From: a virus | IMG/VR virus record: IMGVR_UViG_3300029787_000179 | Span: 1 to 33,759 of that record | Direction: 5' to 3' (one strand) | Length of the DNA: 33,759 bases | Shown here: piece by piece, positions 1,416-20,725 of the stretch | Layout of the letters: each line of letters begins with the position of its first letter | Position numbering within the stretch: position 1 is the first letter of the stretch | Notes under the pieces: generated by a model | Told to the model about the DNA's origin: nothing | Database searches by the model: none | What the model saw: the letters and a program-made list of their open reading frames with translations, nothing else | Position numbers and translations under genes: made by a program

Positions 1416-3431
1416 TTAACCTTCAACGCCTTCTTCGGCACCCAATATGCCTTGTTCTTGCCTTTGTCCGAATCTAGCCTGCAAATCAGCTTTGTCAATT
1501 ACATTTTCTAACTTATTGAGATTCTTTCTTTCTTTTTCTTTCATTTCGCCCATTACACTATCTAATCCACTTTTGAACTTTTGAGTGATGGTTTGTTTTC
1601 TAGCGTTAATCATTTCACGCTCAGAAGTTTGTAAATCACCACGCAACTTTTTAACCTCTTGCTCAAGTTGTTTAATGTATGACTGCATCTGATTCATAGT
1701 ACCTTTTCGCTGCAGAACACCTTCTTTGTCATAGATTTCAGTTTTCTTTAAAACCTCGACATCATCTACCAAGCCCAACTTGTAAGCATCTAAATACATA
1801 TTGTACTCAGCCATCTTATTTGATGGTAGCGTTGAACCTGATATTATCCGAATATCGTGCTGACCTAATGATATATCATTATCTATAGACTGTAATTCTT
1901 TAGACTTATCATCGTAAAGTCTGTTATTTACAGTAAATTCTGTAATGTCATTATTAGGCTGCACTATTCTAAAAGTCTTTTTAAAGCCATAGTGTCCTTT
2001 AGCAAAGTTATAAACACATCTACCAAGAACATCTAAGCTTCCCTCTATATCCCTTAATTTAGATCTACCTCTTGACTCTCCCATTTCTTGCAACAAGTAC
2101 GTACCTCTAGCTGTATCAGCAGCACCACTTCTAAATCCTTGTAACAATTCTGGTATACCAAAATTTAAATCTATATAATTTTCTACTCTACTAATTAATG
2201 CATAGAATTCAGAAGACAAAGCCTGAGGTGCTGGATAATGAGGTTCTCCAAACTCTGGATTAAACTCAATAACAGCATTAGGGTTTGCCCAATCTCTTTC
2301 TAACTGACCAATGTCATCAACACTACCTTCTGGAACTAAAAGTTTTAAACCAGCAGAAGCTTGTGCATGACTTAAGGTTAAAGAAAATAATTTATTAATC
2401 AGTCTTTGAGAATCCTTAACCTTGTTTACATCGGACTTTGGATAAGGAGTGTTTGTCCAAATATTTGGGACTGGTATAATGGGGTATATATCAGTATTTA
2501 GCACTTGTTCATAAAGCAGTATTTGTCCAACTGTAGCCACATGTTTTATCCGAGTTTGCATAACCTCGACTGCTTCAACCAGTCCCGATTCTATGATTTC
2601 AGATCTTTCATTTACAATTTTTTGAAAAGATTCTAAATCAACTATTTTTTCTTCTTGAGTCTGTTTATTAAATAATCTATAAAAAGGAACTTTAATTTTT
2701 TCAAATCTCTCGAGAATTTTATACTTTGTGTATCCCTCTCTGTCGTAATCTTTTATAACATCGGGAGTAAAAGAAGATGAAGAGTTTTTTCTTTTAGAAG
2801 AGGGATAATCCTCTTCATCTGTTGAGCTATCAATATTATCAATAATTTCTTCTAGCTTTGGATATAATCCTAACAACTGATCTTTTGTAAGTATAGTAGA
2901 GAGAACCATAGATGATGCATCAGCGTAATGCCTATCTCTAGATGCTGGGTCTACATAAACACGAAAAGGACTAACACCAGTAATCTTAACATCACCTCTA
3001 CCAAAGTCTGATTCTGGGTCAACATAAACATAAAAGTATCCTATGCCAGATACTGAATAGTCATGAACAACTTGTTTAAAATGTGTATTACAGTTTGATA
3101 TGTCCCAAATGTATTCTAATATAGTTCGCCAAACATTTGATAATTTATAATCAGAATCTTCTCTGGCAACTGCAGTAAACTTTGGATTTCTTGATGTTAA
3201 TAAGGACTTTAACTTATCTACAGCAGCGTATACTCTATCTATAATAAAATCACCTTGTCCAACAGATTGAAGCATTTCTGATTCATCTGATGAATAATGA
3301 TTTCCTAAAACAAAATCTATAGCATCCCTGGCTTCTGTATCCCAGTTTGCTCTAGCATCTCTATACCTTCTAAATAAGTCTCTATTTCGCTGTGCTTCTT
3401 CATGCTCAGCAAATGTTTCTACGTAGTTAAT
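1416..3431 (-). CDS. Portal protein, probably starting at a rare AUU codon
   Basis: The head-tail portal would be about 671 aa and forms the dodecameric ring for DNA entry and tail attachment. The first ATG is at 3275, but the frame is open and protein-like well upstream (for example RRYRDARANWDTEARDAIDF) to a stop at 3453-3455. No ATG, GTG or TTG exists in that extension. An AUU at 3431-3429 has AGGAG exactly 7 nt upstream and lies about 20 nt after the predicted transcription start, so I chose it. The C-terminus has a coiled coil (IKQLEQEVKKLRGDL). Position between TerL and scaffold supports the portal call, as does the middle domain with SRDRHYAD-type sequence. A sequencing error at the start codon is the alternative. 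Confidence 0.78.
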   Translation of the reverse strand: MNYVETFAEHEEAQRNRDLFRRYRDARANWDTEARDAIDFVLGNHYSSDESEMLQSVGQGDFIIDRVYAAVDKLKSLLTSRNPKFTAVAREDSDYKLSNVWRTILEYIWDISNCNTHFKQVVHDYSVSGIGYFYVYVDPESDFGRGDVKITGVSPFRVYVDPASRDRHYADASSMVLSTILTKDQLLGLYPKLEEIIDNIDSSTDEEDYPSSKRKNSSSSFTPDVIKDYDREGYTKYKILERFEKIKVPFYRLFNKQTQEEKIVDLESFQKIVNERSEIIESGLVEAVEVMQTRIKHVATVGQILLYEQVLNTDIYPIIPVPNIWTNTPYPKSDVNKVKDSQRLINKLFSLTLSHAQASAGLKLLVPEGSVDDIGQLERDWANPNAVIEFNPEFGEPHYPAPQALSSEFYALISRVENYIDLNFGIPELLQGFRSGAADTARGTYLLQEMGESRGRSKLRDIEGSLDVLGRCVYNFAKGHYGFKKTFRIVQPNNDITEFTVNNRLYDDKSKELQSIDNDISLGQHDIRIISGSTLPSNKMAEYNMYLDAYKLGLVDDVEVLKKTEIYDKEGVLQRKGTMNQMQSYIKQLEQEVKKLRGDLQTSEREMINARKQTITQKFKSGLDSVMGEMKEKERKNLNKLENVIDKADLQARFGQRQEQGILGAEEGVEG

Positions 3432-3458: not shown

Positions 3459-3487
3459 AATATAATACTTTTTAACCCTTTTGTCAA
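3459..3487 (-). promoter_or_regulatory. Leftward sigma-70 promoter for portal-scaffold-capsid
   Basis: On the minus strand TTGACA (3487-3482) is followed by a 17-bp spacer and TATATT (3464-3459). It lies in the short gap between TerL and portal and would start transcription near 3452, giving a leader of about 20 nt to the AUU start. The -35 is preceded by AC and followed by AAA, as in the other copies at 6358-6386 and 7816-7844. It probably boosts late head-gene expression. Confidence 0.85.
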
Positions 3488-3494
3488 GTATTTT

Positions 3495-5081
3495 TTATGT
3501 TCTTTGTCCAGTAATCCAACTTCTTAATATAGATTTTTGTTTTTTCTTTTGATTAATATTATCATTTGCTTGAAAATTATCAGAGTTAAAACCTTTACTT
3601 AGGGGGGCTCTAGCATTTACAACTGAATACCAAAGGCCATCTAATAGGTCATCATTCTTTCCTTTTGGAAAATGAAACATTTCATCTACTAATTCTTGAT
3701 GTATTTTTTTATGAAATAATTTACCACGATTTACAATAGGGCATAGTGTAGATTCTATTCTATCTTCTTTTTTAATTCCATGTGGTGGTCTAACTCCCCT
3801 AGCTATACCAGGAGCCATTTTTCTATCGAAACCACTCATATTGTTTACAGAGTCTTTAATAATTCCTTGAGCACCTACGTGCTCTACGTTAACTCTTCTA
3901 ACTGGATTATATTGTTTTGCCATCTCAAATATTTTTTGTGGCATTTCATATAAAGGTAAATGATCGTGATAGTAATCTAATATATAATAATTTTTTTCAC
4001 TATCAATAGCTGTAACCATGATAACCTGATAATCACTATTTGCATTTGCTTCATAAGCTAAGTCTACACCCATATAAACATTTACTGGTATAACTCTGTC
4101 TTTTGATTTTATATAAGCTTGATTAGAGTTAGATACAAACTCATAATCATGATGCTGTAGTTTATCAATTTTAAATTTAGCAGTAGCTAAGTCTCTAGCA
4201 TCATTCATATACTCTTGTGCAAACTTATGTAACTGTCCTACATTTTCATAGTCTTTTCTTATTTGATTTATTTTATCTTTACTAAAATAAGACTCCCATA
4301 AAGGTTTGCCATCTTCTAATACCCTATGAAATATAACATCCCAAGTATAAGATTCGTTTTTTTCTTGGGCTTCAAGATATCCATCGTATATAGCCTGCAA
4401 TGCTGAATCGTAATGTACGATAGTGCCAATTAACCAAATGGATCCCTCGTTGCCCTTAGACTCTTCTAAGGATGGGTAAACAGTCGACATCAACCATTCC
4501 TTAATTTCTCTTCTTCTATCTGGTGTTTTTGTATTTAACTCAGATTCAAAGTCATCAAGAATAATATTTGTATACCTAGTACCTAGCTCAGATCGACCAC
4601 GCAATCTTTGGCTAGTACCTTTTGCTATAACTCTATCTCCACGACTGGTTGTTATTTCTTTTTCAGTCCACTTATCCCCAACCATATCTCCAAAATAATA
4701 ATGCAATGGACTATTAAACTCAATATGATTTTTAATATACTTTAAATGATCAACAGCTTGTCCTTGTTCTTCTGATACCCAAGCAGCAAATTCTTTCTTA
4801 CCTTTTGGATTAAAATATATTTTATGCAATAATGCAGCTTTAGCCATAGTAGATTTAGAATGACCTCTAGGCAAAACAACACAAAGTTTTCTAAGGCTTT
4901 TATCAAGCAACTTATTACCAACCTCATAATGAAAAGGAGCTGGTGTGCTTTTCATAAAATCATCTGGAAGAAACAGTTGACCAAAAGCTATAAGATCTTT
5001 TGATACTAAATTAAGAACTCTTTCTTTTTCAGAAAGACCACTTGAGTTTATATTAAAATTATCTATTGTACCAATCTCCAC
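3495..5081 (-). CDS. Terminase large subunit (TerL)
   Basis: This 528-aa protein is the DNA-packaging motor. It has an ATPase with Walker A PRGHSKST at residues 71-78 and Walker B IILDDFE at 173-179. A C-terminal RNase H-like nuclease follows, with acidic residues in MGVDLAYE (D340), NVEHVG (E400) and NDDLLDG (D477, D478, D481). Length and domain order match phage TerL. The likely start is GTG at 5081, inside the end of the GGCT gene (23-nt overlap), with no strong ribosome binding site, so translation may be coupled. TerS is two genes upstream and portal follows. Confidence is high because all catalytic motifs are present. Confidence 0.95.
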   Translation of the reverse strand: MEIGTIDNFNINSSGLSEKERVLNLVSKDLIAFGQLFLPDDFMKSTPAPFHYEVGNKLLDKSLRKLCVVLPRGHSKSTMAKAALLHKIYFNPKGKKEFAAWVSEEQGQAVDHLKYIKNHIEFNSPLHYYFGDMVGDKWTEKEITTSRGDRVIAKGTSQRLRGRSELGTRYTNIILDDFESELNTKTPDRRREIKEWLMSTVYPSLEESKGNEGSIWLIGTIVHYDSALQAIYDGYLEAQEKNESYTWDVIFHRVLEDGKPLWESYFSKDKINQIRKDYENVGQLHKFAQEYMNDARDLATAKFKIDKLQHHDYEFVSNSNQAYIKSKDRVIPVNVYMGVDLAYEANANSDYQVIMVTAIDSEKNYYILDYYHDHLPLYEMPQKIFEMAKQYNPVRRVNVEHVGAQGIIKDSVNNMSGFDRKMAPGIARGVRPPHGIKKEDRIESTLCPIVNRGKLFHKKIHQELVDEMFHFPKGKNDDLLDGLWYSVVNARAPLSKGFNSDNFQANDNINQKKKQKSILRSWITGQRT

Positions 5082-5421
5082 TTTCTATTACTCTAAATGA
5101 ATTACTACGCTGCAACATCTCATCTCCAGCAACATACATCCAAACATTTTCTGTAGAACCATTATCCATCTCTACATTCGTTTTAACTCTTCTATATAAA
5201 CCAGAACTAATACCTTCATACATATCGTATCTCATTAGCTCTTCAAAGCTAATATCATGCACTTCAACAACTGTTCCTTTACCCTTATCATTTTGTATTA
5301 CAGCTGGAAAATTTTTATGTCCTGGGTATACAAGAGATGATTTTTTTACCTTGCCAGTATTCTTAGAACCTTTTCTAAGCGTTCCATATACAGCAAGCTT
5401 TATATCTTTTTTATTATTCAT
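5059..5421 (-). CDS. GGCT/AIG2-like gamma-glutamylcyclotransferase
   Basis: This 120-aa protein has the hallmark YGTLRKGSKN at residues 13-22 and a later RYDMYEGI...YRR segment typical of the GGCT/AIG2 fold. Family members cleave gamma-glutamyl-amine or gamma-glutamyl-amino-acid bonds, releasing 5-oxoproline. It sits between a small Cys protein and TerL, in a packaging operon where no metabolic role is obvious. It starts at ATG 5421, overlapping the previous stop (TAATG) with GGAGTGA upstream. The phage also carries an amidotransferase and an amidoligase at 11-14 kb, so the three may act on related bonds. That link is inference. Its true substrate could instead be a host metabolite such as a glutathione-like thiol. 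Confidence 0.82.
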   Translation of the reverse strand: MNNKKDIKLAVYGTLRKGSKNTGKVKKSSLVYPGHKNFPAVIQNDKGKGTVVEVHDISFEELMRYDMYEGISSGLYRRVKTNVEMDNGSTENVWMYVAGDEMLQRSNSFRVIESGDWYNR

Positions 5422-5645
5422 TAACTCACTCCATGAACTGCTGGTAAACCAACAGAATCTATTTCTAAGTTATTATCATAAATAGTCATACAACTCATAC
5501 ATTCAACATACATTTTATTTTGATCTAAGTTTTTTATTATGTAAGCAGTAGGAAATAGTTTATGCCCACATAGTACACAACGACTAGACTTCAACTTCTC
5601 TGTTAGCTTCTGCAATTTGTTTAACTCCTCCTGATCCGATGGCAT
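5421..5645 (-). CDS. Small zinc-ribbon-like protein
   Basis: The 74-aa product has a short helical N-terminus (EELNKLQKLTEKLKS), then CVLCGHKLF and, about 25 residues later, CMSCM. This makes a plausible four-Cys zinc ribbon. It starts at ATG 5645 with AAAGGAG at good spacing, inside the end of the TerS-like gene (62-nt overlap), and ends in a TAATG overlap with the GGCT gene. I do not recognise the family. Its position among packaging genes suggests a DNA- or terminase-associated role, but nothing in the sequence proves it. Confidence 0.65.
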   Translation of the reverse strand: MPSDQEELNKLQKLTEKLKSSRCVLCGHKLFPTAYIIKNLDQNKMYVECMSCMTIYDNNLEIDSVGLPAVHGVS

Positions 5646-6348
5646 TTAATTGCTCCTTTGTAAATCCTTGAAAGACAGCAACTGACTCTGTTCTTTTATC
5701 TGTATCCATCATCCCACTGATTTGCATTAATGTTTTAATAGCTTGTATTTTATCTTTATCTTGAGACTCCCCATTGTCTACAATATGTTTCATTTGTTCT
5801 AGTAAATACAAAGGAGTAATCTCAGCTTCTGTAAGAATCTTATCTATTTCTTCTCTAATCAATTTTTGTATCCTTTTTGCTTTCATGAGTATTTTGGCTT
5901 GACCCTCAGCATATTTTTTATTATTAGTCGGATATGCTTTTAAAAAAGAGTCTACTATATTTTCACCTTTAGCAACAAATTGAGCAAAAAGAAACTCTCT
6001 GTGTGTTAATTTTTTTTTCTCAATTTTATGATTCCAGACTGTTTTATTAGCCAAGCCAAAAGAGTAAAGATTTTTTCTAGGCTCTCCCTCTATCTTAACA
6101 GTTTTATTGCAAACAAAGGTTCCTAATGGAACTCTTATATAATCTTTTGTCGCATCAGAGTCTTTTGATACTTTAAGCTTTCCACGTTTTAAAACCTGAC
6201 AAACTTGTCCATCATCTGAAACTATCCAACTACCCTCGTCTCCATCTCTCCAGTTGTTAACAACATCTGTGTTTACATTGTACTGTTTAAATTCTTCTAT
6301 ACTTTCGTATATAGGATGATTAACCTTATTAATCTTTCTGCTTATCAT
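5584..6348 (-). CDS. Terminase small subunit-like protein (TerS)
   Basis: The 254-aa protein probably recognises phage DNA for packaging. Residues about 115-165 (LTHREFLFAQFVAKGENIVD, SFLKAYPTNNKKYAEGQA) resemble the helix-turn-helix of phage small terminases. The next segment (EEIDKILTEAEITPLYLLEQ) and a helical stretch to about residue 215 fit oligomerisation. The first 110 residues are unusual and unrecognised. The gene lies just upstream of TerL with two small genes between. Its ATG is only about 9 nt from the -10 box of the promoter at 6358-6386, so the mRNA would be nearly leaderless. Another HTH phage regulator is possible, but position favours TerS. Confidence 0.75.
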   Translation of the reverse strand: MISRKINKVNHPIYESIEEFKQYNVNTDVVNNWRDGDEGSWIVSDDGQVCQVLKRGKLKVSKDSDATKDYIRVPLGTFVCNKTVKIEGEPRKNLYSFGLANKTVWNHKIEKKKLTHREFLFAQFVAKGENIVDSFLKAYPTNNKKYAEGQAKILMKAKRIQKLIREEIDKILTEAEITPLYLLEQMKHIVDNGESQDKDKIQAIKTLMQISGMMDTDKRTESVAVFQGFTKEQLNAIGSGGVKQIAEANREVEV

Positions 6349-6357
6349 CTATTATAT

Positions 6358-6386
6358 AATATAACCTATTTTATTGTTTTTGTCAA
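6358..6386 (-). promoter_or_regulatory. Leftward sigma-70 promoter for TerS-TerL
   Basis: Minus strand TTGACA (6386-6381), 17-bp spacer, TATATT (6363-6358). The -35 overlaps the stop codon of the exonuclease gene. Predicted +1 is near 6351, just 2-3 nt before the TerS ATG at 6348. Both hexamers and the spacer match the copies at 3459-3487 and 7816-7844 exactly. Confidence 0.85.
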
Positions 6387-7261
6387 GTAGCAGATCTATA
6401 TGCTACGTTTGTTTCTAATGTATTTGACTTGCCTCTGATATGTGGAGAATAGCAAGATGTGCAATAGTAAACATCATATGCACTTGCACCAGTATAGTAT
6501 TTCTTTTTATGTTTCTTAATAGAATCACTACCACATACAGAACAAACATTCTTATCCATCATAACAGCGATGTTAGGATGGTTTTTAATGTAAGGTCTTA
6601 GTTTTAAATACATTTGTTCTAGCCCCATAATATCATGCTTGTTATACTCTTCCATATCTTTAAGAGCTTTTCTATCTCCATTCATACAATCAAGCCAAAG
6701 CTGAAAGTCTGTTTCTAGCTTTTGTTCTAGACCTAAAAACTTTGTAATATAATCTTGCTTGTTAGAAGTTAGAGCAAATTCTTTTCTAGCCACTTTTAAC
6801 GTATCTATTGTTTTGTATGGCATTGGTGGCACAAAGTCATTACTTAAGAATCTAGCTTTTAATTTCTTAAGATCAAACTTGTCTCCGTTATGAGCAATAA
6901 CAATATCTGCTTCATTAAGAAGTTTCCAAACAGATTTAATTATTCTCTTGTCATTTCTTTCTTTTGCTTCTTTAGGAGTTAGTACATCACTTAATATGTT
7001 ATCATCATACAACCATTTAGCAGACCAGCTTAATACATACCAATCTATAGTTTTGTTATTATTATCTTTTATAATGTTATGTGGATATACATACTGTTTG
7101 CCTATACTCCAAACCCATACAGCTATTGGTGTGGTCTCTATATCAAGAAAAAGTATTTTGGGTAGCTTTGCATCAAAAGCATCTGCTTTATCCATAGCAG
7201 CAGTATTGCCTTTTACAAACTGACCCTTTGCATTACGATTGCCATCTGCTTGCCAACTCAT
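6383..7261 (-). CDS. Stand-alone DEDDy 3'-5' exonuclease with zinc ribbon
   Basis: This 292-aa RNase H-fold exonuclease is of the DnaQ/DEDDy type. Exo I is FLDIET (D40, E42), Exo II is AHNGDKFD (D130), and Exo III is YNKHD (Y206, D210), so all catalytic residues are present. A C-terminal zinc ribbon follows with CSVC (C240, C243) and CTSC (C267, C270). The N-terminus NRNAKGQFVKGNT resembles a basic tail I know from small terminase-like phage proteins. No DNA polymerase is fused or nearby. It starts at ATG 7261 in an ATGA overlap with the DUF1599-like gene. It may proofread for the host polymerase, trim recombination ends or process packaging ends; the sequence cannot decide. Confidence 0.88.
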   Translation of the reverse strand: MSWQADGNRNAKGQFVKGNTAAMDKADAFDAKLPKILFLDIETTPIAVWVWSIGKQYVYPHNIIKDNNNKTIDWYVLSWSAKWLYDDNILSDVLTPKEAKERNDKRIIKSVWKLLNEADIVIAHNGDKFDLKKLKARFLSNDFVPPMPYKTIDTLKVARKEFALTSNKQDYITKFLGLEQKLETDFQLWLDCMNGDRKALKDMEEYNKHDIMGLEQMYLKLRPYIKNHPNIAVMMDKNVCSVCGSDSIKKHKKKYYTGASAYDVYYCTSCYSPHIRGKSNTLETNVAYRSAT

Positions 7262-7602
7262 TTACCCCAAACCCTTTCTGCAACCAACTGAGCAATCACG
7301 CCATATACTGACAAATCTCTAAATGCATCCATGTATGTTTCATCTGATACTGCATTCTTACCACTATTTTTAATTATAATATTTTTTAATCTATTTACTT
7401 TATCATTCATTCGAATAACCAAAGCAATAAGAGACAACATTCTGTCGCTTTCATTTTCAAGATCTCCACCAAGCGTAATGTTGCCACTTCCATAATCATA
7501 TTGTTTTTTACAAAATAATTCATACTGTTCAGTTGTTATTTCTCCAAACCTTTCCATCATCTGAGGATACATGTCCTCTATCTTTTTAGTAATCTCTCTC
7601 AT
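7258..7602 (-). CDS. DUF1599-like (nucleotide modification associated domain 1) protein
   Basis: This 114-aa protein has LFCKKQYDYGSGNITLGG at about residues 29-46, then helices with RMLSLIALVIRMNDKVNRLK. That layout matches DUF1599, also named nucleotide modification associated domain 1, which recurs in phages. The family's biochemical role is not established; links to modified nucleotides come from gene neighbourhoods. No other base-modification enzyme is visible here. It has AAAGGAA before the ATG and is translationally coupled (ATGA) to the exonuclease. The family call rests on motif recognition only. Confidence 0.6.
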   Translation of the reverse strand: MREITKKIEDMYPQMMERFGEITTEQYELFCKKQYDYGSGNITLGGDLENESDRMLSLIALVIRMNDKVNRLKNIIIKNSGKNAVSDETYMDAFRDLSVYGVIAQLVAERVWGK

Positions 7603-7611
7603 TTGATTCCT

Positions 7612-7809
7612 TTATAATGTTATTGCTGGTACTACAACTCTAGTAAAATAATTACACTCTGTGTCTATGGTACATTCCTTTCCTTGTCTTTTAGAATCGA
7701 TACGCATAATTAGTTTGCGATCAACAGAATACATATCACACCCTAGACATCTACCATTATCCCAGTTAGCACAATAGGTGCGTGCATCTTGTTTTTTATA
7801 TTTTTTCAT
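7612..7809 (-). CDS. Unknown 65-aa Cys-rich protein, leaderless start
   Basis: The open frame extends upstream to 7968, but that part would cross the promoter at 7816-7844 and encodes an implausible Tyr/Ile-rich stretch. The start is therefore ATG 7809, giving MKKYKKQDARTYCANWDNGR and about 65 residues in all. Cysteines occur as CANWDNGRCLGC and later CTIDTEC, consistent with metal binding or disulphides. Only 6 nt separate the -10 box from the ATG, so the A of ATG is the predicted +1 and the mRNA would lack a leader. It is the first gene of the leftward block. No family is recognised. Confidence 0.65.
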   Translation of the reverse strand: MKKYKKQDARTYCANWDNGRCLGCDMYSVDRKLIMRIDSKRQGKECTIDTECNYFTRVVVPAITL

Positions 7810-7815
7810 ACACTC

Positions 7816-7844
7816 AATATAATACAAAAAGAAACTTTTGTCAA
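7816..7844 (-). promoter_or_regulatory. Leftward sigma-70 promoter heading the left operon
   Basis: Minus strand TTGACA (7844-7839), 17-bp spacer, TATATT (7821-7816). It is back to back with the rightward promoter at 7859-7887, with 14 bp between the two -35 boxes. A protein bound between them could switch both. Predicted +1 coincides with the ATG at 7809. Confidence 0.88.
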
Positions 7845-7858
7845 GTTTTATTTTTTTC

Positions 7859-7887
7859 TTGACAAATGCTATTAAAGTACTTATATT
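7859..7887 (+). promoter_or_regulatory. Rightward sigma-70 promoter (probable early promoter)
   Basis: TTGACA (7859-7864), 17-bp spacer, TATATT (7882-7887), preceded by a T-rich stretch that could act as an UP-like element. It would start near 7894, giving a leader of about 200 nt before the lipoprotein gene, and transcription could run to the terminator at 9323-9352. Confidence 0.88.
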
Positions 7888-7912
7888 GTATATAGCTAAA
7901 CTAGAGAAATAA

Positions 7913-7936
7913 ATATATAATATATATATTATATAT
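7913..7936. repeat. 24-bp perfect AT palindrome
   Basis: The sequence is its own reverse complement, built of TA steps around a central block. It lies about 20 nt inside the leader made from the promoter at 7859. It may be an easily melted or cruciform-forming site or an operator. Simple AT composition makes some palindromy likely by chance. Confidence 0.5.
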
Positions 7937-7989
7937 AAACTATATAAAGAAAAATAAGTTATTAACATAACTTAGAAAAAGAAAAATAT

Positions 7990-8139
7990 ATGACCTATAG
8001 AAAAATTTTACCAAAAAATTTACAGAAATGGGTTTATAATATATCAGCACCTTATAAAATAAAAACTAAAGAAAGGTTAGAAAAAAACCAAAATGAAAAA
8101 ATCACTCTCTGTGTTGTTACTGTTGATTGGTTGCAGTAA
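7990..8139 (+). CDS. Possible 49-aa basic leader ORF overlapping the lipoprotein gene
   Basis: An ATG at 7990 opens a 49-codon frame (MTYRKILPKNLQKWVYNISA at the start) in the leader of the promoter at 7859, ending inside the lipoprotein gene in another frame. The product is Lys-rich and has no membrane segment. There is no clear ribosome binding site, only purines upstream. It could be a translated leader peptide that couples translation to the lipoprotein, or a chance frame. Confidence 0.3.
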   Translation: MTYRKILPKNLQKWVYNISAPYKIKTKERLEKNQNEKITLCVVTVDWLQ

Positions 8140-8419
8140 TCCTCCAAAGACTACATATTATAATTATAAAGACCTACATGGCAAACAACATATCTTTACT
8201 ACAGATATATATAAATTAAAAGAAACAGATTATCATTATTGTTATGAGCATGATACACTACATAAGCTAGAAGTAAAGGGATATGCACAAACTACTATGA
8301 TGGTAGATTCTACTGGATCAAAACATTTTTACGAACACATGTTGGACAACTCTAATAACTGGTGTTATGTCCATAATCGATATGAATATGTAGAAGCCTT
8401 AAAAACGTTTCAAGAATAA
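8093..8419 (+). CDS. Predicted early phage lipoprotein
   Basis: This 108-aa product begins MKKSLSVLLLLIGCSNPP: two lysines, a short hydrophobic core and a canonical lipobox LIGC with Cys14. Signal peptidase II would cleave before Cys14 and lipidate it. Ser at +2 would favour the outer membrane under the E. coli rule. The mature part is about 95 residues, His/Tyr-rich, with no recognised domain. It is the first sizeable gene after the strong rightward promoter. Phage lipoproteins expressed early often block superinfection at the receptor or DNA-entry step, and that is my inference here. The AAAGG upstream is spaced loosely (16 nt), so translation may depend on the leader. Confidence 0.72.
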   Translation: MKKSLSVLLLLIGCSNPPKTTYYNYKDLHGKQHIFTTDIYKLKETDYHYCYEHDTLHKLEVKGYAQTTMMVDSTGSKHFYEHMLDNSNNWCYVHNRYEYVEALKTFQE

Positions 8420-8607
8420 CATATGCATACTTATACTAGCCAAAAGTAAAAAAACTCCATATAGCCGCAAATTTGGGACAAATAGAAGTATTCTAGTTTT
8501 ATAGTCATACCCATATTCTACACATACACTTCACAGCTGTAAAAATTGTACTATTTTGTGTGTAGTTCTTTTTTGCGTGCCGACCCCCCCCTCCCGATTT
8601 GTTTGGC

Positions 8608-8667
8608 TTTCGACTTTTTGGTTAGAAAATCGACTTTTTAGTTTATATTTCGACCAGCCAGTCTAAA
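8608..8667 (+). repeat. Three 20-bp spaced iteron-like repeats
   Basis: CGAC occurs at 8611, 8631 and 8651, exactly 20 bp apart. The first two units share CGACTTTTT-G/A-GTT, the third keeps only TTTCGAC, and a degenerate fourth (TTTCAAA) begins at 8668. Twenty bases is close to two helical turns, so bound proteins would line up on one face. This suits an initiator or repressor array. Confidence 0.5.
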
Positions 8668-8721
8668 TTTCAAACTCCAACTTCCGAAATAAAAAAATTC
8701 GGAGTCTAATTTCCGAGATAT

Positions 8722-8799
8722 TTAAAACTTCAGTTTTTTTTCTTTAATCCAGGCACCACGATCACGATGGGTCATCGATAGCCCAGGTTGATGGATCAT
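8722..8799 (-). other. GC-rich island with possible 25-aa minus-strand ORF
   Basis: Reading leftward from the ATG at 8799 gives 25 codons (MIHQPGLSMTHRDRGAWIKE at the start) to TAA at 8722. The codons cover the GC-rich island. No ribosome binding site is visible; a weak promoter-like TTGATC-17-TAATTT lies at 8874-8846. It may be a small protein, a structured RNA, a DNA site shared with the host or a foreign fragment. Confidence 0.25.
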
Positions 8800-8908
8800 A
8801 GCTTTTTTTTATTGATTTTTAATTTAAACTATTTTCGATTTAAAAAAATTATTTGTAAATTGCAGCATGATCAAAAATCAATTAATAACAAGATAAGGAA
8901 AAAACTAA

Positions 8909-9295
8909 ATGAAAATAATGACAAAAAAAGAGTTTGAAGCTACTAAAAAGAGTTTGTCTAAACTTGGAATGGTAGAAGCATTAAATCAATTAGATAAAGA
9001 CTTAGAAGCTGGTAGTATCAAGCTAGTAGAGAAAGCATCTAGGCAAGGTCACATAGACTTTATAGTAGACGAAGAGTTAAAAGATAAATTAATTAATCTA
9101 AGTAATGAACTTAGCGAATTAATTAATTTTGAATATGAAGTACCTAATCAATCTATGTTAAATAAAGGTGAACTAAATAAAATATCTAAGTTAAAAAAGG
9201 AACCTAGCAAAATTATTAGAAAGTCTACTAAGTATTCTATTAATATTGCAACTGAGCCAATTTTCTTAGATGAAAAAGGAAAAGAGATTAAATAA
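8909..9295 (+). CDS. Unknown 128-aa charged protein
   Basis: The product begins MKIMTKKEFEATKK, is rich in Lys, Glu and Leu, and looks helical in its first 85 residues (LINLSNELSELINFEYE). A basic patch (SKLKKEPSKIIRKSTKYS) follows. There is no signal peptide or membrane segment. AAGGA lies about 10 nt before the ATG. It is the last gene before the strong terminator at 9323, alone downstream of the long non-coding region. The repeats there could be its binding site if it is a DNA-binding protein, but no HTH is recognised. Family unknown. Confidence 0.7.
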   Translation: MKIMTKKEFEATKKSLSKLGMVEALNQLDKDLEAGSIKLVEKASRQGHIDFIVDEELKDKLINLSNELSELINFEYEVPNQSMLNKGELNKISKLKKEPSKIIRKSTKYSINIATEPIFLDEKGKEIK

Positions 9296-9322
9296 TTTTA
9301 ATCTAGCCTAAATAAAACAAAG

Positions 9323-9352
9323 AGCCTATCTATTTTTATAGATGGGCTTTTT
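9323..9352 (+). terminator. Intrinsic terminator
   Basis: An 11-bp stem (AGCCTATCTAT at 9323-9333 with ATAGATGGGCT at 9338-9348, one G-U pair) closes a TTTT loop and is followed by a T run to 9352. It ends the first rightward unit. A TATAAT at 9358-9363 just after it may be a -10 for the next genes, but the matching -35 is poor (TTTATA). Confidence 0.88.
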
Positions 9353-9392
9353 GCGTTTATATAATAATCTTATCTATAAAGAAAGTTTATCT

Positions 9393-9782
9393 ATGAAAAA
9401 AATTTATTTTGAAATAGAATATACTCTACAAAAGAAGTGGCTACTTTATCTAGAGGATAAAGAGATAGGTTCTTTTTCTAACCATAAAGAGTTAATAGAG
9501 CGTATTCTATATATACGAGACTTATGCAGTAGAGAGTCAGATTATATAGAGATATATAATAGAAACAATAGAAGTATCTACAAAGTAGACCAACATAGAC
9601 TAGGCGACTTGATAGTCAGGCTAGGTGGTCTATTTACAGATGGTGGAGATATGACAGATACAGAGTATCTAGTCAAACATACACTAAAGATACATAAGCA
9701 ACCAATCAAAACACATAGAGCAATTAAGCCTATAGATACCAAAGTTACCAGACCTATACTTAGAGAGGACAAAACTTGGTAG
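9393..9782 (+). CDS. Unknown 129-aa protein
   Basis: The frame is open from 9342, but an upstream start would lie in the terminator. ATG 9393, preceded by GAAAG, gives MKKIYFEIEYTLQKKW and is preferred. The N-terminal 60 residues look alpha/beta and the C-terminus is basic and Thr-rich (HKQPIKTHRAIKPIDTKVT), perhaps nucleic-acid binding. It opens a long row of small rightward genes with AGA-, CTA- and ATA-rich codons. No family is recognised. Confidence 0.65.
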   Translation: MKKIYFEIEYTLQKKWLLYLEDKEIGSFSNHKELIERILYIRDLCSRESDYIEIYNRNNRSIYKVDQHRLGDLIVRLGGLFTDGGDMTDTEYLVKHTLKIHKQPIKTHRAIKPIDTKVTRPILREDKTW

Positions 9783-9814
9783 ACAATCAATTAACATAGA
9801 GAGGAGTTATTACT

Positions 9815-10042
9815 ATGGCTGAAAGTGTGAGAGTAATGAACGCTCTAACTAAAGCTCAAGAGAGAGTAAAAGAGTTAGAAGAAAAAAAGAAGTCTATGCA
9901 ATTACGTATAGATAGACTAGAAGAACATAGAGATGGCCTGAGAGGGCAAGTAAGATATCTACAAGACAGACTATATAGAGTTAATCAATCTATGTATCAG
10001 AGATTCAAAGACTATATCAAAGATAAAATAGATCAATGGTAG
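9815..10042 (+). CDS. Small coiled-coil protein
   Basis: This 75-aa protein is almost entirely a predicted coiled coil: QERVKELEEKKKSMQLRIDR and later LRGQVRYLQDRLYRV show heptad leucines and alternating charges. GAGAGGAG at suitable spacing precedes the ATG. It may oligomerise or act as an adaptor inhibiting a host protein, as many small early phage proteins do; this is speculation from size and position. Confidence 0.7.
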   Translation: MAESVRVMNALTKAQERVKELEEKKKSMQLRIDRLEEHRDGLRGQVRYLQDRLYRVNQSMYQRFKDYIKDKIDQW

Positions 10043-10084
10043 ACAGATGCCCACATAGTAGAAAGTGGCAACTGGTAGAGTGGT

Positions 10085-10438
10085 ATGTCAAACACTTTAA
10101 TACGTCTAAGAGAGATGGAAACTCTAAGACAAAGAAACAACTCTATGCAATATGGTATAGAGAGAAAGAGAGAAATGTCTATGAAAGAAAATAAGATTGA
10201 AGAAGCTGTTCTTAATAATTTATTAATATGGGTAATGGCTGTTAAACATAGTAAGAAAGACTACCTAAATTCTCATGATAGACATAAAGATAAAGAGAAA
10301 AAGCTATTTGGAGAAATTCAACCTATATGTTCTCAAAGAGAGTATAAGAGATGTTGCGACCCAATAGTTAATAAGATGTATGGTTCTATAGAAGCTCTCA
10401 TAGAGATAGAAGAAGAGATAAAGAAAAGGACTGAGTAA
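10085..10438 (+). CDS. Unknown 117-aa protein
   Basis: The product is basic and Arg/Met-rich at the N-terminus (RLREMETLRQRNNSMQYGIE), then mixed helical, ending in an acidic helix (EALIEIEEEIKKRTE). The ribosome binding site is modest (GGTAGAGTGGT), and later ATGs within the first 40 codons are possible starts. Its stop overlaps the next start as TAATG, so the two genes are coupled. No family is recognised. Confidence 0.6.
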   Translation: MSNTLIRLREMETLRQRNNSMQYGIERKREMSMKENKIEEAVLNNLLIWVMAVKHSKKDYLNSHDRHKDKEKKLFGEIQPICSQREYKRCCDPIVNKMYGSIEALIEIEEEIKKRTE

Positions 10439-10671
10439 TGGAAGAGAAAATAGACCCTAGAATAACTAATCTAATCAAAGCCTACGAGAAGACTCTAGAT
10501 AATATAGATCTGGATATAGAGAGAACTAAAGAGCAGATAGAAATAGAAGTAAAGTCAGAAGAAATGACAGATAAAGAAGCTAGAGTAGCTTTAGGATGGA
10601 TAGAAGCTTTAGAGTATGTATTAGTTTTAACCGAGAGAGAAAGAACACAAGGAGAAAAAATAATATGCTAG
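10438..10671 (+). CDS. Unknown 77-aa acidic helical protein
   Basis: The product (MEEKIDPRITNLIKAYEKTL at the start) is predicted to be nearly all helix with charged heptads (IDLDIERTKEQIEIEVKSEE), then an ALGWIEALEYVLVLTERE amphipathic helix. It is coupled to the previous gene by TAATG and overlaps the next by 7 nt. Function unknown. Confidence 0.65.
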   Translation: MEEKIDPRITNLIKAYEKTLDNIDLDIERTKEQIEIEVKSEEMTDKEARVALGWIEALEYVLVLTERERTQGEKIIC

Positions 10672-10817
10672 AATCAATTAAGCATTTACTAGGACTATGT
10701 GGAGAGCCACATGGTCTAGCACATATGCTATACGCATTTGGTGGTCTATTAGGTACAATATGCTATGGTATAATCAAGAGAACATTATGGTGGATAGAGG
10801 ATAACGTATGGATATAG
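10665..10817 (+). CDS. Small single-pass membrane protein
   Basis: The start is ATG 10665, since AAGGAG lies at 10649-10654; the frame also opens at 10596 but without support. The 50-aa product has one hydrophobic helix at about residues 20-38 (HMLYAFGGLLGTICYGIIK) followed by basic and aromatic residues. It probably sits in the inner membrane. Small early phage membrane proteins often affect superinfection or host physiology, but no family is recognised. Confidence 0.6.
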   Translation: MLESIKHLLGLCGEPHGLAHMLYAFGGLLGTICYGIIKRTLWWIEDNVWI

Positions 10818-10975
10818 AACAATTTGTTAACAAGTATAGAAGCAATATAGATAGCTACTTGGAAGAGAAGTATCCAAGATTTGAGAGAACAGATCAAGAG
10901 AGACAGCTGTTTGTAGAGAATGATGAGTATTTATATCTATGGGCAGTTAAAAAGGGATTATCTACGAAAGATTAG
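10808..10975 (+). CDS. Unknown 55-aa protein
   Basis: ATG 10808 lies inside the end of the membrane protein gene (10-nt overlap), suggesting coupling. The product starts MDIEQFVNKYRSNIDSYLEE, is charged and aromatic-rich and ends KKGLSTKD. The 134 nt after it, up to the amidotransferase, contain only two in-frame peptides of 15-16 codons that I do not call as genes. Confidence 0.5.
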   Translation: MDIEQFVNKYRSNIDSYLEEKYPRFERTDQERQLFVENDEYLYLWAVKKGLSTKD

Positions 10976-11109
10976 ATATGTATAAGATTTATAAAGAATT
11001 ACCTACAAAGAGAGAGGTAGTAGTATAGATGAAAAACAAACAACCAAGAATATTATCTAAAGGAGTATGCCTATGAGATAGTATTCTACAATCAAAGGAA
11101 GGAGAATAT

Positions 11110-12294
11110 ATGTGTGGTATATTTGGTTATGCAAAGCAGAGCAATGCACAGACAGACCAACAGATGGAGACCATCAACGTAGTTCTAAAAAACCTAGCTA
11201 GAGAATCAGAAGTCAGAGGTAAAGATTCTACTGGTATAGCAATTATCAGCGAGAATAAAAATCCTCTAGTATTCAAGTCTCTAAAGAAAGCTAGTAATCT
11301 AGTTAAGGACAAACACTATGGAAAGATTCAAGAGAGTATTGACAAAGAGACAGCGATAGTTCTAGGTCATACTAGATACGCTACTCACGGTACAGTATCT
11401 CTAAAGAACGCTCATCCATTTAGTTTTGGCTCTATTATTGGTACTCACAATGGTGTAATATACAATCATGAAGATGTCTCAGCATCTCTTAAAAGAGTGT
11501 ATGAGGTAGACTCACAAGCTGTGTTTGCTCTATTTGACCAGAATAGTAACTTACAAGAATGTCTAGACGAGATGTACGGAGACTACGCATTAGCATGGAA
11601 TAAAGATAACAAGAACACCTTGTATCTACTGAGAGAAGAAGGTAGACCATGCCATTACGTATACTGGAGTGAAGCTAAAGTTATGTTCTATGCATCTACT
11701 AAAGAGATACTAGAACAAGCTATACAGAAAAGCACTATGAGTAGACGTATAGATAAGCATACGATTGAAGTATACAATCACTTGCTCGATCTATACACGT
11801 CTGAGATACATACACTAGATGTGGATAAGTTATACACATTCGATACACACAAGTTTACAGACGAGTTAGTATACGAGACTAAAGACTATATCACAAACTC
11901 TATATCATATAACTACGTAAAAAGTAGAGGTGCCTGGGATTATGGTAGCTATGGTAGATATGGTGGTTATGGATATAATACTTGCGATGTAGATGATTAT
12001 ATGCTAGACGAGATTAGCTGTGATGGATGCGACGAGAAAACTCAGTACGTGGATATAATCTACAACGAAGATACTAAAGAGTATGTATGCTATGATTGTG
12101 AATACAAAGAGAATCCAAAACTAAACGTAGATGAAGCTTATATGGAAGGTATAGAGTGTAGCGACTGCAAGTCTTACGATGACAGCATATATAAAGTCAA
12201 TAAAGATTATATATGTGAAGATTGTTATTCTAAAGAAGACTCATCCAGAGAGGAGAGTTACGATGATAAACAGCAAAAATTCTTTCATCTCTAA
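11110..12294 (+). CDS. Class II glutamine amidotransferase with C-terminal zinc modules
   Basis: The N-terminal 240 residues are an Ntn-type glutaminase. They show nucleophile Cys2 exposed after Met removal (MCGIFGY), RGKDSTGI at 36-43, GHTRYATHG with R89, NAHPF at 100-104, HNG with N114-G115, and VDS with D134. It should release ammonia from glutamine. No synthase domain follows. Instead there is a Gly/Tyr-rich linker at about 272-290 and four CxxC pairs (304/307, 327/330, 350/353, 369/372), which look like two LIM- or treble-clef-like zinc modules. GGAGAATAT precedes the ATG. The amidoligase two genes on has similar Cys modules, so it is the likely ammonia or amine acceptor partner; this is inference. 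Confidence 0.9.
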   Translation: MCGIFGYAKQSNAQTDQQMETINVVLKNLARESEVRGKDSTGIAIISENKNPLVFKSLKKASNLVKDKHYGKIQESIDKETAIVLGHTRYATHGTVSLKNAHPFSFGSIIGTHNGVIYNHEDVSASLKRVYEVDSQAVFALFDQNSNLQECLDEMYGDYALAWNKDNKNTLYLLREEGRPCHYVYWSEAKVMFYASTKEILEQAIQKSTMSRRIDKHTIEVYNHLLDLYTSEIHTLDVDKLYTFDTHKFTDELVYETKDYITNSISYNYVKSRGAWDYGSYGRYGGYGYNTCDVDDYMLDEISCDGCDEKTQYVDIIYNEDTKEYVCYDCEYKENPKLNVDEAYMEGIECSDCKSYDDSIYKVNKDYICEDCYSKEDSSREESYDDKQQKFFHL

Positions 12295-12580
12295 AAAAGT
12301 AGCTATGATAGTTGGTATAGAAGATAGTATTAGATATCGTACCAAACTACAAGCTATGAAGAAGCTATACAAGAAAGCTAAGAACAATCCATTTACAGAT
12401 ACAGAGTCGTTTGATAGTTACATGAAGTTCATAGCTAACAAGATCAGAGAAGGTACAAGCGTAGACGTTCAATCAACAGAGCCAGAGGAGATATTCGATA
12501 CATTGAAGAAGATAGGTTGGCTCAGAGAGAGAAGCTACGCTAGTTTCTATATGATTACTACTAACAAAGCAATAGCTTAG
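12263..12580 (+). CDS. Unknown 105-aa protein between amidotransferase and amidoligase
   Basis: AGGAGAG at 12251 points to ATG 12263 rather than the more upstream frame opening at 12179. The gene overlaps the amidotransferase end by 32 nt. The product is basic and helical (LQAMKKLYKKAKNNPF, SYMKFIANKIREGT), then EPEEIFDTLKKIGWLRERS. There are no Cys modules. Its fixed place between two enzymes of one likely pathway suggests an accessory subunit or the substrate, but nothing in the sequence shows which. Confidence 0.7.
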   Translation: MINSKNSFISKKVAMIVGIEDSIRYRTKLQAMKKLYKKAKNNPFTDTESFDSYMKFIANKIREGTSVDVQSTEPEEIFDTLKKIGWLRERSYASFYMITTNKAIA

Positions 12581-12589
12581 GAGGTATGT

Positions 12590-13918
12590 ATGCCAGCTAG
12601 AATAAATACTAGAAGGATAGAAACCTTTGAATGTCATTGCTGTAGTGATACATATACAGTTAATAGTCTTGAAGCTAGAAAACAAGAAAGAGAAGGTACC
12701 TTAGAGCACCCCATTAGGCAGGTAAGAGATGTTAATATACACGGTCAAAGTTGGGAGATAATATGCAATGTCTGTTACGATGATGAAATAACAGAATGTG
12801 CTGATTGCTCTTGTAGTCTAGAAAGAGATAGTTCTTATACTTTCTATAGCGAAAATGGAGAAGCATACTGCGAAGATTGTTACTATGAAAACTATAGCCA
12901 TTGCGATGACTGTGGAGAAGAAGGTCATAGAGACTATATGATATACAGAGAAAGCAGAGAACAGATGTACTGTGAGAACTGCGATCCTGGAGATTCAGAT
13001 GATGTAGACCTATGGAGTTTCAATAGAATAAATAAGATAGAGTCTACAATACCAGAGACAGAGTCACGTAGGTTCGTAGGAGTTGAGATAGAGTGTTTAG
13101 TTGAGGATTCAGAGTGGTGGGATTATCATGATAATTATCCAGAGACATTCAGAGCTGTTAGCGATAGCTCTATAGAAAGAGTAGAAGATAGTAGTACAGT
13201 AGAGTTTGTACATAGAGCACCGATACAAGGTAGAAGACTTAAGAGGTCTATAGTTTCTATGTGTGATTATCTATCAGCCAATGACTTCTTTACTAATAGA
13301 AGCTGTGGTCTACACGTACACGTTGATGCTGCAGATATGGGTTATAGAGATCTTAAGTGGACTCTACTATTAGGTAAGTCTGTTCAAGACATTATCTATA
13401 AGATGATGCCAATGTCTAGACGAGATGGTAGATGGGCTAAGAGAATACCTATGAGTAGAGAGAGTATACTTAATATCTGTGATGACCATGACTTCGTAGA
13501 CCAATGGTACTCAGCCTGGGGCGTAGAACCTAGCTATGAGAAGTATAATAGCTCTAGATATTGTGGTATGAATATGCACTCTAGGATTATCAATGGCTCT
13601 ATTGAGTTTAGGTATCACTCTGGTACTATCAATAGAAACAAGATAATAAACTGGATTACTATATGCCAAGCGATAGTAGATACTGGTAGACTTCTAGGTA
13701 TGTATGGAGAAGCTAAATATATTGCTAACATTCCAGAAGAATATCATTATATAAAAGTACTAGCTAACCAGATCTCTGAGAGAGACTTAACCTATGGAGA
13801 GTTTTGTAAGTATCTTAGATTACCTCTTGAGGTAAAACAGCACACTAGGAAGAGACTAACTAAGTTCTACAACTCTGACTACAGAGAAGACTACGAGACT
13901 ATGCATTTCTACGTATAA
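12590..13918 (+). CDS. Amidoligase (glutamine-synthetase-fold COOH-NH2 ligase) with N-terminal zinc modules
   Basis: Residues about 160-420 match phage-type putative amidoligases. GVEIECL has metal-binding E166 and E168, SSTVEFVHRAP has E205, GLHVHVD has H242 and H244, and SIEFRYHSGTIN has E339 and R341. These enzymes use ATP to join a carboxyl to an amine. The first 135 residues hold repeated Cys pairs (C15/C18, C59/C62, C70/C73, C94/C97, C105/C108, C128/C131), probably several zinc modules that may choose the target. TAGGAGGT directly precedes the ATG. It lies in an operon with the class II amidotransferase. The substrate is unknown: phage protein, host protein or cell-wall peptide are all possible. 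Confidence 0.88.
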   Translation: MPARINTRRIETFECHCCSDTYTVNSLEARKQEREGTLEHPIRQVRDVNIHGQSWEIICNVCYDDEITECADCSCSLERDSSYTFYSENGEAYCEDCYYENYSHCDDCGEEGHRDYMIYRESREQMYCENCDPGDSDDVDLWSFNRINKIESTIPETESRRFVGVEIECLVEDSEWWDYHDNYPETFRAVSDSSIERVEDSSTVEFVHRAPIQGRRLKRSIVSMCDYLSANDFFTNRSCGLHVHVDAADMGYRDLKWTLLLGKSVQDIIYKMMPMSRRDGRWAKRIPMSRESILNICDDHDFVDQWYSAWGVEPSYEKYNSSRYCGMNMHSRIINGSIEFRYHSGTINRNKIINWITICQAIVDTGRLLGMYGEAKYIANIPEEYHYIKVLANQISERDLTYGEFCKYLRLPLEVKQHTRKRLTKFYNSDYREDYETMHFYV

Positions 13919-13934
13919 AAGAAAGGAGGTAGAG

Positions 13935-14171
13935 ATGAACGTAAAAGAATCGTTAGGAGATTACGAGAAAAAGATATTCGATAGATTCGGATATGATGTT
14001 AATAAATTAAATGATGAGCAGATAGAGATTATTCTACAGCCTCAATGGGCACCAGAAAACTTCTATCAAGATGGAGAGATAGATAGTAGAATGGCAGATA
14101 GGGTATGGCTTAAAAAGTTGATAACGCTCGGAGTTTATAATAGAAACTACGTTGAGTATATTCTAGGATAA
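13935..14171 (+). CDS. Unknown 78-aa acidic protein
   Basis: A strong AAAGGAGGT precedes the ATG. The product starts MNVKESLGDYEKKIFDRFGY, is acidic in its first half and has a WLKKLITLGVYNRNYVEYIL C-terminal segment. There are no membrane or Cys motifs. It follows the amidoligase by 16 nt and is probably in the same operon. Family unknown. Confidence 0.65.
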   Translation: MNVKESLGDYEKKIFDRFGYDVNKLNDEQIEIILQPQWAPENFYQDGEIDSRMADRVWLKKLITLGVYNRNYVEYILG

Positions 14172-14207
14172 AGATATACTAATATAAACAACAGAAAGGA
14201 GGTAGAA

Positions 14208-14393
14208 TTGGAAGAAGTAAAGTTAAAAAAGTTTGAAGTGTTTGCAACACAACTAGTAGACTGTGTGATCGAGATACAAGCTGAAACTAGAGATGATGCA
14301 ATGGAAGAAGCTACAAACATTAGCTGGGAAGAATGGAAAAGAGAATCGAACAGTCTAGATATATATGATGCTTTAGAGATAAAAAACAAATAG
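14208..14393 (+). CDS. Unknown 61-aa acidic protein with TTG start
   Basis: AAAGGAGGT at 14196-14204 fixes the start at TTG 14208, with no ATG nearby. The protein (MEEVKLKKFEVFATQLVDCV at the start) reads like a small beta-alpha domain. The pattern FEVFATQLVDCVIEIQAETR then DDAMEEATN resembles short phage proteins with a strand-strand-helix fold. It is the last gene before the divergent promoter pair, and its end would be covered by an antisense transcript from 14442. Confidence 0.65.
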   Translation: MEEVKLKKFEVFATQLVDCVIEIQAETRDDAMEEATNISWEEWKRESNSLDIYDALEIKNK

Positions 14394-14448
14394 TAATATA
14401 AATATATAAGTATATAATTATATATATATAGACCCAACCATTGTCTAC

Positions 14449-14477
14449 AATATACGGAGTTTAGTAAAGTTTGTCAA
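14449..14477 (-). promoter_or_regulatory. Leftward promoter pointing back into the amidoligase operon
   Basis: Minus strand TTGACA (14477-14472), 17-bp spacer, TATATT (14454-14449), identical in hexamers, spacer length and flanking C and AA to the three left-operon promoters. Predicted +1 is near 14442. No leftward gene of any size follows, only an ATG at 14441 with 7 codons. An antisense or regulatory RNA is therefore the likely product. Confidence 0.75.
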
Positions 14478-14490
14478 GAAAAAAAATATC

Positions 14491-14519
14491 TTGATATAAA
14501 ATATTTTTCTTTTTATATT
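14491..14519 (+). promoter_or_regulatory. Rightward sigma-70 promoter for the replication module
   Basis: TTGATA (14491-14496), 17-bp spacer, TATATT (14514-14519), ending 23 nt before the Cas4-like nuclease ATG. It is divergent to the promoter at 14449-14477. An overlapping alternative is TTGTCA (14471-14476) with TATAAA (14495-14500). It probably starts the recombination-replication block. Confidence 0.7.
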
Positions 14520-14542
14520 GTAGGCATGAGAAAGGATAACAT

Positions 14543-15433
14543 ATGCCAGCTATAGGATTTAAATATCCAGAGGGAGATACTATAACATTTGAAGATGCTC
14601 TAGAGAATAATAAGCTAGACATTAATAGAATGGGTGTGTATCCTACAGCTCTAAGAGAGATGGCTAAACAGAGAGATCCAGATAGAAAGCCATCTGTTAC
14701 AGAGCTACTCAATGGCACTTGCCAATCCTACTTACAGAGAACTACAGAATATTATCTAGACCCACAAGACCTAGCATTTTCTCTAGCAGGTACTCTACAT
14801 CATAATAAGTTAGAGAGTAACGCTGATGAGACAGATGCTGAGATAAATGTAGAGGGATTAGATATAACTGGTATTGTAGACTTGTACGACAGCCAGACAA
14901 AGTCTTTGATAGACTATAAGAATACTGGCTCTTATAAAGCTGCTCAAGTACTGGGTATGGAGTTCTTCTTAGAAGATGACCCTAGTGGTGCTGTCTATCT
15001 AAGAAGTGGTAAGTGGGGCAAGAAAGGCTCTCCAAAGAAAGTAAAGAGATTCTGGTCTAATCCAGAGAAAGCAGATTTTGGAGACTGGTCTTGGCAGATT
15101 AACATGTATAGATATATGTTAGAGTCTACTGGAAATCAAGTAGATAGCATGTATGTACAGATGACAGTTAGAGATGGTGGCATACTTGCAGCGAGAGACA
15201 GAGGTATAGACAGAAATATATATCTAGTTGAAGTGCCATACATACACAACGATCACTTACTAGAGTACTATAGAGACAAAAGAGATAGACTATTAGATGC
15301 TTTAGAGAGTAAGGTAACTCCAGAGAAGTGTAATAAAAGAGAAACGTGGGATGGTATGAAGTGTAAGAAGTATTGTGAAGTCAGACATCATTGTCCACAC
15401 GTAGACAATCGAGACATACTAGAAGGAAAATAA
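14543..15433 (+). CDS. Cas4/RecB-like PD-(D/E)XK nuclease with iron-sulphur cysteines
   Basis: This 296-aa nuclease has ITGIVDLYD then SLIDYKNTGS, the D...D-x-K core of PD-(D/E)XK enzymes, and a following QINMYRYML (the RecB-type motif with Gln). One Cys at 60 and three at the C-terminus (C274, C278, C284, with C263 nearby) match the split iron-sulphur cluster of Cas4 and AddB. It likely resects DNA ends to single strands for the annealing protein encoded next. It begins at ATG 14543, with the promoter at 14491 just upstream, and is separated from the next start by 1 nt. Confidence 0.85.
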   Translation: MPAIGFKYPEGDTITFEDALENNKLDINRMGVYPTALREMAKQRDPDRKPSVTELLNGTCQSYLQRTTEYYLDPQDLAFSLAGTLHHNKLESNADETDAEINVEGLDITGIVDLYDSQTKSLIDYKNTGSYKAAQVLGMEFFLEDDPSGAVYLRSGKWGKKGSPKKVKRFWSNPEKADFGDWSWQINMYRYMLESTGNQVDSMYVQMTVRDGGILAARDRGIDRNIYLVEVPYIHNDHLLEYYRDKRDRLLDALESKVTPEKCNKRETWDGMKCKKYCEVRHHCPHVDNRDILEGK

Positions 15434-20608: not shown

Positions 20609-20690
20609 GCCCCTCTAGCCTAGGAGGGAGAGAGAGAAAAGTTTTTCCTTATAGAGTGCAGTCATATTGCCTCTTTACTTGTGCAAAGAA

Positions 20691-20725
20691 AGAGGGTGTA
20701 GTAGTCGAGCTATGCCCTCTTTTTA
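20691..20725. terminator. Terminator between converging operons
   Basis: An 11-bp stem (20691-20701 with 20710-20720, two G-U pairs) with an 8-nt loop is followed rightward by TTTTTATTTT. Leftward the continuation is TCTTTCTTT, so it may work weakly in both directions. CCTCTTT at 20670-20676 can pair with AAAGAGG at 20689-20695 instead, an alternative fold that would break the terminator stem. Confidence 0.8.

Follow-up and report, generated by a model that had tools for sequence, protein, structure and literature searches.

The locus raises the question of why a single promoter-like form, TTGACA and TATATT separated by 17 bp, is repeated exactly in one phage genome, and whether it is read by the RNA polymerase of the host or by a factor of the phage. 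We read the five sites, with a probability of about 0.82, as promoters for a holoenzyme of the sigma-70 type, most likely the housekeeping RNA polymerase of the host.

Genome organisation

The window analysed comprises an entire IMG/VR virus record (33,759 bases) and has an AT content of about 67%. Gene calls and family searches identify it as a tailed phage; the source is uncultured, from the ocean. Near-identity and protein searches gave no close relatives among isolated phages, and no lysogeny genes were recognised among the proteins scanned. The leftward arm runs from 7.9 kb to position 1 in the order p65, exonuclease, terminase small subunit (TerS), TerL, portal and then virion genes. A second leftward block extends from the other end of the record down to 20.7 kb, and would join the first if the record represents a circularly permuted piece. 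The rightward arm (8 to 20.6 kb) encodes a glutamine amidotransferase, an amidoligase, a PD-(D/E)XK exonuclease, a Sak-type annealing protein, a RusA-like resolvase and a DnaB helicase. Two hairpins resemble intrinsic terminators:

9318..9353, plus strand: hairpin of 16 pairs, 3' of the second rightward gene
20687..20724, plus strand: hairpin of 16 pairs, where the two gene arms converge

A class II glutamine amidotransferase (11110-12294), an amidoligase (12590-13918) and an open reading frame resembling gamma-glutamylcyclotransferase (5059-5421, the last recognised by eye only) are found together in this one phage and are possibly a peptide- or surface-modifying set. The interval 8420-8900, between two rightward genes, is gene-free and contains a C-run and repeated words, tcgacttttt and ttccga; it is a possible origin region.

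Repeated sites in the window

The original prediction of five TTGACA-N17-TATATT sites is correct. Exactly five matches are found where 0.01 is expected from a dinucleotide-preserving shuffle, and none of 100 shuffles gave five. The mismatch scan added a single site with one mismatch. The predicted promoters are:

3459..3487, minus strand: P1, portal promoter, TTGACA-17-TATATT
6358..6386, minus strand: P2, terminase small subunit promoter
7816..7844, minus strand: P3, p65 promoter, left half of a back-to-back pair
7859..7887, plus strand: P4, promoter of the rightward (replication) arm, right half of the pair
14449..14477, minus strand: P5, strong leftward promoter, antisense to rightward genes
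14490..14519, plus strand: P6, the one-mismatch site (CTTGATA-17-TATATT), weaker partner of P5, before the exonuclease gene at 14543-15433

All five exact sites lie in gaps or at gene ends, as had been proposed. The edge of P1 at 3487 is 8 nt beyond the TerL stop (3495), and bases 6383-6386 of P2 just overlap the stop of the exonuclease gene at 6383-7261. P3 and P4 (7816-7887) are upstream of the true p65 start, with its ATG at 7809, and P5 is inside the gap 14394-14542. The sites carry 11 of the 12 consensus bases of sigma-70/sigma-A promoters at a spacing of 17 bp, and they are conserved upstream of genes, P5 being antisense to the genes that it faces.

Conservation in related viral contigs

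The extended motif was to be looked for in related phages, and it recurs there as CTTGAC[A/T]-N17-TATATT. The relatives, which are marine, are the best 80 of 217 TerL-related stretches in viral contigs, with TerL 75-96% identical; the loci are mostly fragments. The window and the 80 loci together contain 212 matches to TTGAC-N18-TATATT, a number that reflects far fewer independent events because the relatives share ancestry (the thinned sets comprise 24, 20, 6, 19 and 4 sites for P1 to P5). All but one occupy five syntenic slots whose places relative to TerL do not change, the exception being a lone match in L081, so the motif is not common inside genes.

A search of the slots made without the motif gave an exact site in 75 of the 77 relatives covering the portal slot and in all 63 covering the TerS slot. 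The two portal exceptions are L017, with a 16-bp spacer, and L059, a partial TerL match with the motif at a shifted position. The distance from TTGAC to TATATT is almost invariant among relatives (207 sites at 17 bp; 1, 1 and 2 at 16, 18 and 19 bp), and TATAAT follows TTGAC at 17 bp only three times. The interior of the spacer is weakly conserved, at about 0.5-0.9 bit per base in a calculation whose search pattern already sets the -10 and most of the -35; the motif-free slot search is independent of that pattern. Since the spacer is poorly conserved, the boxes are under selection.

A C before the -35 and AA after it had been described as common to all five sites. This is true of the window; among relatives the C largely persists (C or G, 95:9 distinct sites), but the AA is often replaced by TT (CTTGACTTT). 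The sixth base of the -35 is A or T and the next bases are mostly AA or TT.

One record of 80,282 bases contains two different members of the family (L017 and L038), with TerL 88% and 84% identical to that of the window, and could represent an assembly chimaera or a pair that has been joined.

Promoter form in bacterial chromosomes

The same form was sought in 26 bacterial genomes, each of which was picked for at least one similar site and which are thus not a fair sample, though strong TATAAT users are included. At 17 bp after TTGAC the ratio of TATATT to TATAAT is 85:8 in KSB1, 77:6 in Lentisphaeria, 36:4 and 46:13 in Kryptonia, 15:3 in Ignavibacteriales and 37:18 in Aminicenantes. The opposite preference is found in WOR-3 (23:332), a planctomycete (12:66) and Lachnospiraceae (14:50). 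Reversed-pattern controls are low, at most about ten per genome. The KSB1 spacer is as rigid as that of the phage (85 sites at 17 bp, 6 at 16 and 1 at 18), and a C precedes TTGAC in 52 of the 85, with AAA or TTT frequently overlapping its end or next to it. Across the KSB1 and Kryptonia sites C is present before TTGAC in 61-75%.

The phage sites share this FCB-type dialect, with TATATT over TATAAT, 17 bp only and C before TTGAC. Like bacterial sigma-70/sigma-A promoters they have a TTGACA -35, a 17-bp spacer and a -10 with A second and T last, and they stand before genes; they differ in that the -10 is almost always TATATT and hardly ever the E. coli optimum TATAAT, the spacer is invariant and the C before the -35 is nearly fixed. 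The Bacteroidota promoter type (-7 TANNTTTG, -33 TTTG) was ruled out, as the sites read TTGACA/TATATT; Shine-Dalgarno sites are present. In the open-access subset of the literature nothing specific was found on this promoter form.

On this dialect the marine host would tentatively be placed in the FCB group or in a lineage whose sigma factor is similar. Marinimicrobia (SAR406), AT-rich and marine, are a natural candidate. The scan made of GTDB genomes gave no relative of TerL. Two stretches of Pelagibacter phage were read; neither has a TATATT-form site and one has TATAAT sites, and on this thin evidence a SAR11 host is not favoured.

Recognition by host polymerase or by a phage factor

Two readers had been suggested, host RNA polymerase with selection for one strong form, and a phage regulator that recognises the extra bases. 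The former is well supported by the conservation of orthologous sites and by the bacterial chromosomes with the same form, and from these we infer transcription from the sites.

According to the second suggestion a phage-encoded regulator or a divergent sigma factor reads the invariant extra bases, and all five sites respond together. The motif is indeed stricter than most sigma-70 promoters, and in one clade (L038, L055) P1 and P2 have switched together from TTGACAAA to TTGACTTT while P4 and P5 kept TTGACAA. Several small phage proteins matched no family, and most PHROGs are without function. Against this, family searches found no sigma factor, polymerase or antiterminator among the phage proteins scanned, and other viral contigs, themselves selected by the pattern, hold the motif several times each. 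The extended form is found in KSB1 and Kryptonia chromosomes as well, which makes the extra bases features of a promoter dialect of bacteria. A regulator is not needed, as the C, the AAA or TTT, the 17-bp spacer and TATATT are all present in FCB-type chromosomal sites, and we consider it improbable. The statement that the sites are more alike than a sigma-70 promoter needs is right by E. coli standards and does not stand by those of FCB-type bacteria.

Leaders of p65 and TerS

Recognition by host polymerase would place two of the predicted starts at or close to a start codon:

7612..7809, minus strand: p65, small Cys-rich protein of 65 amino acids, ATG exactly 6 nt after TATATT
5584..6348, minus strand: terminase small subunit, whose ATG follows the -10 box at 9 nt, giving a predicted leader of very short length

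The mechanical open reading frame 7612-7968 extends upstream of the p65 ATG only by chance. In L015 and other relatives the promoter contains in-frame stops, which exclude a longer p65 there. In 20 of 23 distinct measurable relatives the distance from TATATT to the ATG is exactly 6 nt, and the spacing is kept even in clades with a degenerate -35 (TTGCA or TTGTA). Given the usual 6-base gap from the -10 to +1, the A of the ATG would be the first transcribed base, and the p65 mRNA is predicted to be leaderless. The TerS ATG is 4-16 nt after TATATT across relatives, mostly 7 or 9, so close that in most of them the leader would have a few bases at most. Neither p65 nor most early proteins have a Pfam match, and the AlphaFold2 model of p65 (pLDDT 51) is unusable.

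The arrangement resembles the leaderless genes of Deinococcus-Thermus with an ORF-adjacent -10 (PMC12340547), in which, as in p65, the -10 is a few bases before the ATG and the mRNA is expected to begin at or near the AUG. It differs in that a full -35 is found in several clades, in that the genes are those of a phage and in that only one or two genes per genome are concerned.

The portal start codon

The unit downstream of P1 begins with a gene whose start was missed by the mechanical call:

1416..3431, minus strand: portal gene, AUU start at 3431-3429 behind AGGAG, with a conserved frame upstream of 3275

The mechanical open reading frame (1416-3275) is 52 codons too short; the frame runs upstream of its first ATG to the AUU. 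The start is AUU, AUC or AUA in 44 distinct relatives, that is in every relative examined (within L006-L085), and a GGAG or GGGG ribosome site precedes the codon by about 7-8 nt. No in-frame ATG, GTG or TTG is found near the start in the 44 distinct sequences except in L061, with an ATG just upstream of its GGGGG, and in L010/L011, with a TTG overlapping the ribosome site. By its conserved frame, ribosome site and non-AUG codon the gene appears to belong to the class with non-AUG starts. In the open-access subset of the literature nothing specific was found on AUU portal starts.

The portal ring needs only 12 copies, which makes a dosage role for the AUU/AUC/AUA start a plausible inference. 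In staphylococcal genes such starts lower the yield (PMC13009471). The AUU or AUA starts of infC, pcnB and S. aureus cvfC1 and ccpN are comparable, and in cvfC1 and ccpN the start, which lowers yield and is conserved in relatives, stands behind a strong Shine-Dalgarno site (PMC13009471). The present case differs in that the gene encodes a phage portal and in that relatives exchange AUU, AUC and AUA for one another.

Paired promoters and the P4 leader

P3 and P4 are back to back with 14 bp between their -35 boxes. Lambda pRM and pR are likewise back-to-back promoters, with a leaderless leftward gene and a rightward unit with a leader; P3/P4 have the same arrangement and are predicted to share the other two features. 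They are unlike them in that p65 is without a recognised DNA-binding domain and in that lysogeny genes are unrecognised in the proteins scanned. P5 and P6 form a second back-to-back pair (14449-14519), P5 being the strong half and antisense to the preceding rightward genes. P6 is exact in record G010. In the window and in 7 of the 11 related loci checked, P5 stands no more than 320 bases upstream of the exonuclease gene; one group of three similar loci lacks it there, and in one further locus it is farther off.

Downstream of P4 the following are found:

7888..7980, plus strand: P4 leader, with the GTATATAG initial sequence, an AT-rich stretch and then a dyad
7955-7974, in the P4 leader: dyad TAAGTTAT-TAAC-ATAACTTA, a perfect inverted repeat

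Across relatives 99% of the cells of the dyad are paired, with 47 two-sided and no one-sided changes, and five of its eight pairs vary on both sides. The changes include no G-U intermediates, and for this a DNA operator is as good a fit as an RNA hairpin, or a better one. The window contains a single perfect copy of the dyad, and the idea that it serves as a general operator at other places there was rejected. The first bases of the predicted P4 and P5 RNAs are alike (GTAAGTACGTAG...) in most genomes. AT palindromes are found downstream of both starts, replaced in one clade by CTATTCTAA repeats at both. Within-genome alignments of P4 with P5 beat every shuffle. The shuffles preserve nothing beyond base composition and such scores are raised by AT repeats, so the likeness is suggestive.

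These shared sequences and the perfect dyad at P4 could be taken to mean that the motif is a binding site for a repressor or replication protein, with an incidental likeness to a promoter; a promoter next to AT-rich DNA also resembles an R-loop replication origin. The motif is, however, an asymmetric two-box structure with 17-bp spacing, its direction fits a gene start at P1 to P4, the P3 ATG is at a fixed 6 nt, and the shared extras are restricted to P4 and P5, all of which makes such a site very unlikely. Chance or the composition of an AT-rich genome is refuted: looser matches, up to three mismatches, are at chance level (34 against 29 expected), but the exact form far exceeds expectation, the reversed pattern occurs 0 times in the window and twice against 207 in 830 kb of relatives, and the positions are conserved.

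Proposed transcription programme

Beyond the original prediction, reading the sites as host-type promoters leads us to propose a leaderless start, a non-AUG portal start, paired promoters and an antisense fifth site. One host-dialect form (CTTGAC[A/T], usually followed by AA or TT, a rigid 17 bp and TATATT) would serve all main transcription units. P3, P2 and P1 would start the leftward units, of p65, the terminase, and the portal and on into the virion genes; P4 would start the rightward replication arm, and from P5, which is paired with the weaker P6, a leftward RNA would run antisense to early genes. Output would be tuned after transcription, with the p65 mRNA starting at its own AUG, TerS almost leaderless and the portal AUU behind its Shine-Dalgarno site expected to lower the yield. 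It is conceivable, if doubtful, that P5, in the middle of the rightward arm, silences the early genes by opposing transcription, and that its RNA, with a beginning like that of the P4 leader, extends toward the late leftward genes or competes with that leader for whatever binds it.

The analysis gives a predicted promoter map, drawn from the genomes themselves, for a widespread family of uncultured marine phages. It suggests that the dialect of TATATT with a rigid 17-bp spacer could help to assign phages to hosts where no isolate, prophage or spacer is available. Standard open reading frame calls miss 52 codons of the portal gene because of the apparent AUU/AUC/AUA start in all relatives, and p65 is a candidate on which leaderless translation could be tested in these hosts. 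If the role of P5 is as proposed, the P5 switch and the AUU/AUC/AUA portal start would together be a compact means for the phage to set the timing and dosage of its genes with no transcription factors of its own.
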